From the IMG/VR virus record IMGVR_UViG_3300029319_000212, positions 1 to 34,493 of that record: DNA of 34,493 nucleotides; one strand, written 5' to 3'. This document shows positions 26,683 to 30,731 of this stretch, piece by piece (within the stretch, counting starts at the first letter, position 1; each line of letters begins with the position of its first letter). Position numbers and translations under genes: made by a program. The stretch is from a virus. A model generated the notes under the pieces. That model was not told where the DNA came from. It did not search any database and saw only the letters and a program-made list of their open reading frames with translations.

Positions 26683-26885
26683 TTGTTGTCAGTGTTGCCA
26701 GTGTGGACAGTAACCGTTTGGCTAGTCTTTGTTGCGCTAAGTTACTGTAATTATTGGTAGCAGAGGGGAGACTTGAACTCCCGACCTTGCGATTATGAAT
26801 CGTAAATCCACAGAGCCGCTAGCCCGCTGACTGTCTAGCTTTGACCGACTGACAACAAGTTGTGTTGCCAATGGATTGACAACAC
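26683..26885. other. attP: attP region with core and five arm-type repeats
   Basis: A tRNA-like core (26755 to about 26804) lies just downstream of the integrase gene. It is flanked by five 9-bp sites of consensus [TG]TGTTG[TC]CA: 26683-26691 and 26692-26700 on the left; 26850-26858 (reverse), 26862-26870 and 26877-26885 (reverse) on the right. The outer sites include a perfect 11-bp inverted repeat (26683-26693 with 26848-26858). Core plus distal repeated sites is the architecture of lambda-type attP, where integrase binds arm sites with its N-terminal domain. No host boundary is in the window, so the crossover point is inferred. Confidence 0.8.
26755..26828 (-). tRNA. tRNA-Met(CAU)-like sequence, 3' half intact (attP core)
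   Basis: Read leftward it has an anticodon stem-loop with CAU (complement at 26795-26797) in a TTCATAA loop. It also has a perfect T-stem (GGGAG 26766-26770 with CTCCC 26778-26782) around TTCAAGT, a 3' acceptor strand CTCTGCT, discriminator A and an encoded CCA. The 5' half is poor: a possible acceptor strand AGCGGGC pairs only with two G-U and one mismatch, and no D-stem forms. It is therefore probably a piece of the host tRNA gene used for integration, not a working phage tRNA. Confidence 0.55.
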
Positions 26886-27953
26886 TTAGAGCTTATTCAC
26901 TAGATCTTGCACTTCGACAGTCTGGCTATTCAAGTAGCCCAGCGTTGTGGTTAGTTGCTGGTGCCGTAGTAGCTTCTGAACAAGCACAGGCGACTCACCC
27001 GCAGCGAGTAATTCCGTAGCCACGGTAGCCCGAAAGCCGTGCAATACCTTTGGCCCTTTCAAGCCTAGTTGATCCAACATCTTCTGAAAGCTGTGCCCTG
27101 CACTGCTGTAGTCTCGCCAGAACTTTCCGCCAGAACCATCATCACAGACAAACACTTCGCCGTCATGCGCTTCTGCGTCTAGAAACTGACGCAGCGGTCT
27201 GGCTACCGGCAGGATTGCATCCGCTCTGCCTTTTGTCTGCCAATCTTTATTGCTTTCCAGCCAAATGCCTTGGTGGCTGATGTGGTTCCAACGTAGGTGG
27301 ATCAACTCGCTGGCCCGCATGCCGGTGTAGCGGAACAGGTAGAACGCCCTACGAAGCACCAAGAAGCGCCGTGAACCGGTTTCTGTCAGCTTGCGTTCGA
27401 TGTACTCGCGCATCAGCTCCAACTGGTCACGGCTCCAGGTCTGCGGCACTACCGTGACGGCGCGGAGCTGCTTCAGTTTGTAAGGCCGGTCAACCAGTTC
27501 TTCTTCAAAAGCCCAGTTAAAAAAGCGCTGCACATTTCGGATGTGGTGGTTGATCGTGCGGTCATTTAGGCCACGCTGTCGCTCCTGGGCGATGTAGTTA
27601 TCAAGCTGACTGCGCTGGTAGTCTTGAACACAAGGATTGCCGTTCGCCTGTTGCCAGCGTTTCAGACTGTCGCCGTAGGTGTAAACCGTTCTTGGGCTGT
27701 TGCGGGTTTTACAGTGACCTAGAAAGCGCTCAACTGCCTTCTGGAAGGTTACTAGCGTGCCTTCGTTCTGTAGCCCTAGTTCTTGACGAAGCGCTTCCAA
27801 ACGTTCGGACAGAATCAGCGCCCGCTCCTGTGGGCTCATGCCGACAAACTCTGCCGCTGTGCCTAGCTTCTTACGAATCCGCTTACCGCCAACGTAGAGC
27901 TGCGCAATGTGAATGCCGCGCTGCTTGTTAAACGTGACCGTCTGCCGCTTCAC
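26886..27953 (-). CDS. int: Tyrosine recombinase (integrase)
   Basis: 355 aa. Catalytic residues are complete: R213 in TGMRASEL, a likely K near 241, H305 and R308 in HGFRAT, H331 in LLRH, and nucleophile Y340 in GYLN. The N-terminal part (1-60) carries a basic arm-binding-like region, and residues 70-160 a SAM-like core-binding domain with TINHHIRNVQRFFNWA. It starts at GTG 27953 without a Shine-Dalgarno; an in-frame TAA lies four codons upstream, so no longer start is available. attP follows directly after the stop. Start and candidate promoter positions suggest a leaderless mRNA. No excisionase is recognised. Confidence 0.95.
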   Translation of the reverse strand: MKRQTVTFNKQRGIHIAQLYVGGKRIRKKLGTAAEFVGMSPQERALILSERLEALRQELGLQNEGTLVTFQKAVERFLGHCKTRNSPRTVYTYGDSLKRWQQANGNPCVQDYQRSQLDNYIAQERQRGLNDRTINHHIRNVQRFFNWAFEEELVDRPYKLKQLRAVTVVPQTWSRDQLELMREYIERKLTETGSRRFLVLRRAFYLFRYTGMRASELIHLRWNHISHQGIWLESNKDWQTKGRADAILPVARPLRQFLDAEAHDGEVFVCDDGSGGKFWRDYSSAGHSFQKMLDQLGLKGPKVLHGFRATVATELLAAGESPVLVQKLLRHQQLTTTLGYLNSQTVEVQDLVNKL

Positions 27954-27961
27954 AATATTTA

Positions 27962-27993
27962 ATTATCGAAACATTTGTGGGGGGGGGGGACAA
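27962..27993 (-). promoter_or_regulatory. Candidate integrase promoter containing an 11-G tract
   Basis: On the minus strand, TTGTCC (27988-27993, -35-like) and GATAAT (27962-27967, -10-like, 5 of 6 to consensus) are separated by 20 bases. Nine of the eleven C's (G's 27979-27989 on the plus strand) lie in that spacer. The predicted start would be within a few bases of the GTG at 27953. A homopolymer between -35 and -10 changes promoter strength when its length slips. Confidence 0.45.
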
Positions 27994-28011
27994 CTTTGTA
28001 ACACTTTGAAT

Positions 28012-28036
28012 AAACGACTGCCGAAGCAGGCCGTTT
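28012..28036 (-). terminator. Hairpin terminator after the repressor gene
   Basis: Immediately beyond the repressor stop, the minus strand forms AAACG...CGTTT, an internal loop, and CTGC-TTCG-GCAG with a C(UUCG)G tetraloop. The U-run after it is weak (ATTC), so termination may be partial, letting some transcripts continue into the integrase gene. Confidence 0.5.
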
Positions 28037-28037
28037 C

Positions 28038-28451
28038 TTACATGACAGCGCTATCTGTCCGCAACGGTACGATTTTGCTGTTCGTGCGTTTCGTTACTGT
28101 CCCCAAGTCTTTTTTTAGTTGCTGCTCCAATAAAGCGTTTTTTTCTTTCAACAGCGCGATTACTTCATCTTTGCTAGCTAGCAGCTCATCACGCAAGTCC
28201 GTAGCCTGCTCTTTTTCTACTGCCGATGTCGGCAAATACGGCTCACCTTCGCCCTTCATCAGCCATTCCGTATTGTAACCATTTTTGACCGCGTTCATTA
28301 ACATTGTTGGGGAAACATTCCGTTGCCCTTTCAAGACTACAGTCAAATGACTTGGATGCACTCCCCAGTCTCTGGCTAATGCGGACTTGTTTCCACCTTT
28401 TTGCCGCACATAGAAATTTATTCGCTCAATGATTTCAGTGTTTTCTGCCAT
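28038..28451 (-). CDS. CI-like lysogeny repressor without S24 peptidase domain
   Basis: 137 aa from the ATG at 28451. Residues 19-45 form a helix-turn-helix (KSALARDWGVHPSHLTVVL). The segment NGYNTEWLMKGEGEPY (58-72) is the hallmark of the phage CI repressor N-terminal domain. Residues 80-115 form a Glu/Lys/Leu coiled coil for dimerisation. The Ala-Gly cleavage site and Ser/Lys catalytic domain of lambda-type CI are absent, so RecA-stimulated self-cleavage is not expected. It is divergent from the Cro-like gene, with an operator-like region between. A frame extension above 28451 lacks support. Confidence 0.85.
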   Translation of the reverse strand: MAENTEIIERINFYVRQKGGNKSALARDWGVHPSHLTVVLKGQRNVSPTMLMNAVKNGYNTEWLMKGEGEPYLPTSAVEKEQATDLRDELLASKDEVIALLKEKNALLEQQLKKDLGTVTKRTNSKIVPLRTDSAVM

Positions 28452-29639: not shown

Positions 29640-29887
29640 AGCGCCTGAGTGAGCGTTTGAGTGAGCGGCTGGCACAGCGTGACATGTCACGATTGGCGCT
29701 GGAACCCGCCAGACCAGCCGCTACGCAGCCTACTGGCAAAAACTTGGACATAAGCGTGACATGTCACGATTCAAAACTGCGCTATTGCCCTGGTTGCGAT
29801 AACTACAAAACGCCGAAACCACCACTTTGGGTATTTGGTAGCAAGGTCTGTCGTTTCTGTCAGCGAATGAGCCGCCTTGGCCGGTGA
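29636..29887 (+). CDS. Zinc-finger-like early protein carrying two palindromic DNA elements
   Basis: 83 aa from a TTG at 29636 overlapping the previous stop (TTGA); this choice gives the same coupling seen elsewhere. The N-terminus repeats RLSERLSERLAQR, a basic amphipathic helix. The C-terminus contains YCPGCDNYKTPK and VCRFCQR, a four-cysteine zinc ribbon (C-x2-C...C-x2-C) common in small phage proteins. The DNA holds two copies of a 19-bp palindromic element in different reading frames. The end overlaps the next gene by 11 bases. Confidence 0.68.
   Translation: MKRLSERLSERLAQRDMSRLALEPARPAATQPTGKNLDISVTCHDSKLRYCPGCDNYKTPKPPLWVFGSKVCRFCQRMSRLGR
29676..29771. repeat. Pair of identical 19-bp palindromic elements
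   Basis: AGCGTGACATGTCACGATT occurs at 29676-29694 and 29753-29771, with a perfect 14-bp palindrome CGTGACATGTCACG at its heart (29678-29691 and 29755-29768). The copies are 77 bp apart and lie in different codon phases: the first reads R-D-M-S-R, the second V-T-C-H-D. Conservation is therefore of DNA, not protein. It looks like a binding site for a dimeric protein. Confidence 0.85.
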
Positions 29888-30731
29888 AAAGAATCGAACT
29901 TGCTTCCCAAAGCCCTGCGTCTGGTGTGGGAAGGAGTTTACACCACGGGAAGCCAAGATAAGGCATTGCAGTCGCAAATGTGGCTATCTTAACGTAAGCC
30001 GCGAACAGCGAGCTAGGAAGATGAAACGCTGCGTTCAGTGCGAGCGGATGTTCTATAACAGGAACAGCAACGCTAAGTATTGCAACCAGGACTGCTATTA
30101 CGAAGCCGCAAGGTCTAGGCGCGTCAAGAACTACATGGGCTGGACAGCACAGCAAGTCCAGTGTCCGCACTGTACAGCGTTTTTCACGCAGCGCAGTGTC
30201 AACCATAAATACTGTACGCGGAGCTGCTACAAAGCCATGAAGCGGCACCAGACGTACATCCGTCTGAAGGCCACCAGCCGCACCGAGTGCAAGCACTGCT
30301 TGCAACCGCTGAAGGAACTCGGCCGCGTCTTCTGCAGTAAGAAATGTAGTGACAAGCATAAGTACATCGCCCACCAGATTTATCAAATAAAGTGCGCGAT
30401 TTGTGGGACTGAGTTCAAGACCAAGAAGAAGCACAGACTGCACTGCAGTAAAAGCTGCAGTAACAAGGCGACGAACCGCAAGAAGGCCGATGAAGCCGCC
30501 ATGCGGCAAGAAGCGTATCACAAGCGTGAGGGGCGCTTGCGTGAGACGATGGAAAGGCGGGTCAAGCACAGTAAGATGATGCCACTGGAAACCGCTCATG
30601 CTGATGCGATCAAGGCATTCCTACAGCGTGGTGGCACCATAAAGCAGTTTCAGCCACAGGATGCAGAGCAGGCGAATACCGCTGTACCCGAAAACTTTTG
30701 GTCCTTCGACCAGTACGACCTAGAAATTTAA
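29877..30731 (+). CDS. Protein with five tandem zinc-finger modules
   Basis: 284 aa from TTG 29877, the only start that keeps the first module. Five consecutive modules of pattern C-x2-C-x(10-14)-[HYF]C-x3-C: CVWC...HCSRKC (about 14-35), CVQC...YCNQDC (52-73), CPHC...YCTRSC (95-117), CKHC...FCSKKC (138-158) and CAIC...HCSKSC (173-195). Each repeats a [KR]-x-C-S/T-x-x-C end, like treble-clef or FCS/MYM-type fingers found singly in phage endonucleases and regulators. The modules are spaced about 20-43 residues apart by basic linkers. The C-terminus (196-284) is a charged helix and a short domain. It probably binds DNA or RNA. Other zinc genes lie directly upstream. Confidence 0.75.
   Translation: MAGEKNRTCFPKPCVWCGKEFTPREAKIRHCSRKCGYLNVSREQRARKMKRCVQCERMFYNRNSNAKYCNQDCYYEAARSRRVKNYMGWTAQQVQCPHCTAFFTQRSVNHKYCTRSCYKAMKRHQTYIRLKATSRTECKHCLQPLKELGRVFCSKKCSDKHKYIAHQIYQIKCAICGTEFKTKKKHRLHCSKSCSNKATNRKKADEAAMRQEAYHKREGRLRETMERRVKHSKMMPLETAHADAIKAFLQRGGTIKQFQPQDAEQANTAVPENFWSFDQYDLEI

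Follow-up and report, generated by a model that had tools for sequence, protein, structure and literature searches.

A pure cytosine tract in the integrase control region of three phage integrase families may form part of a slippage-tuned promoter

The described control regions closest to the one examined here each resemble it in part. The upp, codBA and pyrBI genes of E. coli and pyrG of B. subtilis, all of nucleotide metabolism, carry runs of U or G in their first transcribed bases; slippage on such a start-site homopolymer is established for upp and pyrG and occurs widely in S. agalactiae (PMC4448216). In N. meningitidis, a pure tract of about 10 C in the control region of a single gene, opc, differs in length by one C at a time, and its size within the promoter sets expression—homopolymers of at least 8 residues being predominantly variable in that species (PMC5084427). 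Finally, bacteriophage lambda transcribes its integrase gene from a dedicated promoter, pI, whose CII site is a short direct repeat, TTGC-N6-TTGC, with its halves one helical turn apart. Lambda pI contains no homopolymer. Our search of the literature on homopolymers at phage integrase promoters found nothing relevant.

The locus described here lies in a 34,493-nucleotide phage sequence from IMG/VR (record IMGVR_UViG_3300029319_000212), the whole of which was analysed and is hereafter called the window. Its features are collected in Table 1. The tract, 11 G on the plus strand and C11 on the strand of the integrase gene (int), is exact, as originally predicted, and no other G/C run in the window reaches 7; of 400 sequences simulated under a first-order Markov model of the window, 0.25% contained a run of at least 11. 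From the tract to the integrase GTG downstream the distance is 25 bp, the minus strand reading ...AAAGTGTTACAAAGTTGT-C11-ACAAATGTTTCGATAATTAAATATT-GTG. A protein search with the window integrase, which contains the Phage_integrase catalytic domain, identified six IMG/VR integrases at 72–88% identity, and all five close relatives with upstream DNA carried a run of 9–12 C at the same place. Two further integrase families were added by a pattern scan followed by a profile search; the resulting families A, B and C are only 33–39% identical to each other at the protein level, and the element is common to all three. In the profile-based set, for which the tract was no selection criterion, a C8–12 run was found upstream of int in 40 loci. 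Ten loci with enough upstream sequence had no such run: six with an S24 repressor upstream, three with an extra gene, and one (L062) in which the run had been lost. In assigning the tract to the control of the integrase, the original prediction is supported. In the phage collection, no cultured relative was closer than about 24–30% identity, and no DNA match was found. Long or similar runs in two other contigs (L148 and L156) proved unrelated to the element; the former, at positions 530–640, reads TTGACA-17-TACAAT and then A(C)7 T(G)7, a promoter close to consensus in which the tract has the same geometry, perhaps by chance.

Table 1. Features of the integrase control region and its surroundings (window coordinates)
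Feature	Position	Strand	Basis
Pure C tract, 11 C (8–12 in relatives)	27979..27989	-	Sequence and relatives
Conserved block 5' of the tract, TTTATTCAAAGTGTTACAAAGTTGT	27990..28016	-	Alignment, between-family identity
First half of the GYTAC-N6-GYTAC direct repeat	27998–28002	-	Inside the conserved block
Proposed extended -10, TG-T-TACAAA (TG 28003–28002, TACAAA 28000–27995)	27995..28003	-	Inferred; fits canonical extended -10, weight-matrix scan
Weak -35-like TCGGCA, 18 bp from TACAAA	28019..28024	-	Weight-matrix scan
GATAAT (-10 of the original prediction)	27962..27967	-	This phage only; gap in relatives
TTGTCC (-35 of the original prediction)	27988..27993	-	Unconserved
Tyrosine integrase, 355 aa, GTG start	26886..27953	-	PF00589 E 1.7e-14; phrog_1 E 4.8e-39
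attP core, 48 nt common with the 3' part of a host tRNA-Met gene	26755..26802	-	Relatives and host match
Short repressor-like regulator, 137 aa (MAENTEII...)	28038..28451	-	PHROG 2328 at E 8e-7

The purity and length of the tract set integrase loci apart. A scan with the pattern TGYTNCAANNNNGYTACCCCC, which required just 5 C, returned 63 contigs, and all 23 distinct integrase-side contexts among them had C8–C12. The 21 other contexts comprised 15 C5, four C6, one C7 and one C12, so that 20 of these 21 fell at C5–C7 (Fisher p 1e-11). The minimum in intact type I loci is 8 C, the same lower bound as the threshold given for N. meningitidis (PMC5084427). Purity is not seen in a decayed family C prophage (L138 5500–6100, NYTS01000036.1, from a genome labelled Deltaproteobacteria; GTDB), where stop codons and a frame change disrupt the integrase, the flanks are still recognisable and the tract reads CTCTTCTCCTC; the simplest reading would be that purity was lost once the phage was dead. 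Maintenance of the tract by selection is supported. In assembled contigs, 10 versus 9 C is the sole difference among three contigs of one lineage (a single gap and no mismatch over 4,649 bp), and six of seven near-identical pairs are equal in tract length. Tract length may thus change by one C between otherwise identical genomes. Six loci (L085, L087, L094, L093, L065 and L109) show promoter alleles 5' of the tract (alpha, beta, gamma) and leader alleles 3' of it (x, y, z) in shuffled combinations. The combinations alpha-x, alpha-y, beta-y and beta'-x fail the four-gamete test across the tract, which indicates that recombination happened there.

Sequence conservation is confined to one side of the tract. 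Mean identity between families A, B and C is 70% in the 5' flank and 28%, about the chance level, in the 3' flank, and the distance from tract to start codon ranges from 12 to 49 nt across relatives; it is thus the 5' side that serves as the anchor, with the tract placed behind it. The conserved block, located between a short non-S24 repressor-like gene and int in the three families, ends in TGYTACAAA-N3-GYTA, after which come the 8–12 C. When eight A/B/C representatives are right-aligned at the tract, positions -15 to -9 read G-Y-T-A-C-A-A in every one, position -20 is an A, and TTT is likewise common to all; G/A-Y-T-A precedes the first C in nearly all of them. Since the conserved sequence lies wholly 5' of the tract, the tract would be downstream of the probable promoter, near +1. 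Setting +1 at the A of GYTA yields T-15 G-14 Y T-12 A-11 C A-9 A-8 A-7, which fits the canonical extended -10, and a weight-matrix scan placed TTGGCA 17–18 bp upstream in family A, including the close relatives of the window. TACAAA has no T at -7, and four B loci read TTCAAA; most B members have no good -35, and in most of them the sigma70 matrix fails to single out the predicted site. In the window, the predicted +1 (about 27988) is a C, where nearly all relatives have an A. The tractless L062 has at the corresponding site a better -10, TGTTAAAATTATTACGCAATG, and almost no leader.

We tentatively favour the reading that the block is an extended -10 promoter for int, that its first transcribed bases are A(C)8–12 and that int output is tuned by slippage and CTP, although we give it somewhat less than an even chance. 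The tract would then be the 3' end of a control element that drives int as a unit apart from the repressor. Host RNA polymerase would recognise TGYTACAAA, most members having hardly any -35 or none, and would initiate at the A of GYTA, giving a message that starts A-C(8–12) about 12–50 nt before an int start without a Shine-Dalgarno sequence; the predicted 5' end is ACCCCCCCC, with the x, y or z leader after it. On a run beginning at about +2, the polymerase may slip and add C reiteratively, whereby int output would follow the CTP level, and over phage generations the length of the tract would also set that output. A pure run of at least 8 C from about +2 is the layout of slippage, which makes slippage-dependent int output the likeliest purpose of the tract. 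Against this reading, C runs are less slippage-prone than A or T runs during transcription. The role of the block as a promoter, the start position, the slippage and the effect on lysogeny are all inferred. The wider proposal—that this phage family, with a repressor devoid of the S24 self-cleavage domain, sets integration and excision by slippage on C8–12, reading the CTP pool, with slow length change serving as hedging—is possible but, in our judgement, rather unlikely.

The genes upstream of int offer a further view of the element. In loci that carry the element, a short HTH regulator without S24, in at least three HTH versions, is encoded upstream; where an S24-type repressor gene precedes int, the element is absent. 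In loci of the latter kind, int abuts or overlaps the repressor gene (L081, L095 and L122–L137) or begins 55–90 nt behind it (L074, L078, L102 and L103). The shorter integrases (L122–L137) have no run, and an S24-type repressor lay upstream in all seven examined. On the integrase tree, family B shows five or more independent appearances of the S24 module, as seen upstream of int in L074, L078, L081, L095 and L103, where a family B int follows an S24 repressor and the element is missing. This repeated absence suggests that the element acts as a part needed when int is no mere appendage of an S24 repressor. The window regulator, in which no Peptidase_S24 domain was found, had been called as a 159-aa ORF from TTG 28517, and its 137-aa start was placed by comparison with relatives. 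The element is unlikely to be the operator of the upstream HTH protein, given three HTH types with one element. The regulators of L019, L046 and L057 have a common coiled-coil C-terminus, but their HTH N-termini are of at least three kinds, as though the half that binds DNA, and with it immunity specificity, had been swapped. The three loci with an extra gene (L088, L089 and L106; run C7 or broken) encode an 89-aa cysteine-containing protein (MSDNHQNSGFFG...), with its own Shine-Dalgarno sequence, between the element and int, so that the element there heads a two-gene unit. Additionally, the early region of the window holds a 284-aa ORF (29877–30731, plus strand) with many repeated Cys-Cys zinc-finger-like motifs, and similar genes occur in relatives.

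At the opposite end of int, in the 3' end of a tRNA, lies attP, and the tract is accordingly not part of it. ARAGORN calls a tRNA-Met at 26755–26831 on the minus strand, of which relatives conserve only the 3' 48 nt. The 45 nt of the attP core that were tested match exactly a tRNA-Met of genome G010 (G010:C51:360-404), the only one of 41 genomes of its order with this match; the other 40 had none. The same genome carries the decayed relative L138. For family B, attP corresponds to a tRNA 3' end with anticodon GTT, probably tRNA-Asn, present in G010 and five other genomes of its order. These matches to G010 tRNAs suggest that the phages probably infect the lineage of G010; no intact element was found in 52 genomes of its class. 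In three relatives (L002, L004 and L007), a 5-codon ORF, ATG TTG CGT AAR YCG TGA, precedes int and its stop overlaps the int GTG, possibly allowing reinitiation at int; the window has no such ORF.

Of the alternatives, the spacer model of the original prediction would have the tract separate a -10 from a -35 or activator site, with its length setting promoter strength as at Neisseria opc and with random switching between lysis and lysogeny as a possible outcome. Its TTGTCC and GATAAT are present in the window, with 20 bases between them (27987–27968) and nine C inside, and its arithmetic is right in that GATAAT predicts a start about 2 bases before the GTG. The one-C difference between otherwise identical contigs and the lower bound of 8 C, at which runs are mostly variable in N. 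meningitidis (PMC5084427), also favour a phase-variable spacer of the opc/porA/fetA type. However, the bases of GATAAT are gaps in all five aligned relatives, the position of TTGTCC reads TTATTAC, TTATCAC or GCTAC in relatives, and the tract of L006 is just 12 nt from its ATG; with no consistent -10 after the tract in relatives, its placement in a promoter spacer is unsupported, and we consider this explanation quite improbable. The newer GATAAT may possibly have taken over in the lineage of the window. An unlikely though more serious competitor keeps the promoter of the favoured reading and makes the tract a contingency locus in the leader, where replication slippage would change its DNA length stochastically and thereby alter int initiation or translation, as bet-hedging. 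Tract purity, the 8-C minimum, lengths of 8–12 among relatives and the lone 10-versus-9 difference in 4,649 bp all suit it, but assembly error might account for that difference, tract length is the same in six of the seven near-identical pairs, and one C gained or lost in a leader has no obvious effect. Translational phase variation, considered for L010 because its int ORF is open through C9, is rejected as a general mechanism, as every frame of the x leader contains stops.

Other explanations look to the RNA or to proteins that bind the DNA. A single-stranded C run in the leader could bind a host protein—ribosomal protein S1, Rho or another—and so replace the Shine-Dalgarno sequence or control message survival. 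No such sequence precedes int in the window, where more than half of the listed genes have one; all eight predicted leader folds leave the C run unpaired, pairing with its own message being thereby rejected; and a decayed tract is seen in L106 and L088, where the following gene does have a Shine-Dalgarno sequence. Such binders nonetheless accept mixed pyrimidines (cf. the mixed run CUCUUCUCCU), whereas intact members keep pure C, and we see only a small chance for this role. Smaller still is the chance we assign to an activator or operator site, in which a phage or host protein would bind GYTAC-N6-GYTAC as CII binds at pI and the tract would be an appendage. This direct repeat, of 11-bp period, occurs in A (degenerate), B and C, once per phage genome and at int, and the G and Y of its second half, unneeded by a promoter, may hint at a protein site; yet it is independent of the upstream regulator, one element going with at least three HTH types, and the tract is left unexplained. 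An antisense promoter giving a G-run transcript was rejected, nothing being conserved on that side of the run. Finally, the tract might be a linker at which repressor and integrase modules are exchanged, as the failed four-gamete test would allow, but recombination needs no pure C run and longer homologous coding blocks nearby would suffice, so that this explanation is very improbable.

Were the favoured slippage reading true, a phage would integrate or excise according to a nucleotide pool, read through a homopolymer at the transcription start, the simplest possible sensor. Lysogeny in these phages of uncultured aquatic bacteria, with their S24-free repressors, would then be tied to the metabolic state of the host in a way open to testing. 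Whatever the mechanism, we found no description of this strongly conserved sequence for integrase control, by whose short DNA signature such phages could be found. Its likeness to upp, codBA, pyrBI and pyrG lies in a homopolymer within the first transcribed bases, predicted here from about +2, whereas the gene served is a phage integrase, the run is C8–12, and both slippage and start are predicted. With opc, it has in common a pure C tract in the control region of one gene and length differences of one C, but its tract stands 3' of the conserved block and is followed by no consistent -10. Like lambda pI, the predicted promoter is specific to the integrase and carries a short direct repeat one helical turn apart, although GYTAC-N6-GYTAC, repeating at 11 bp, differs from the CII site in both sequence and period.
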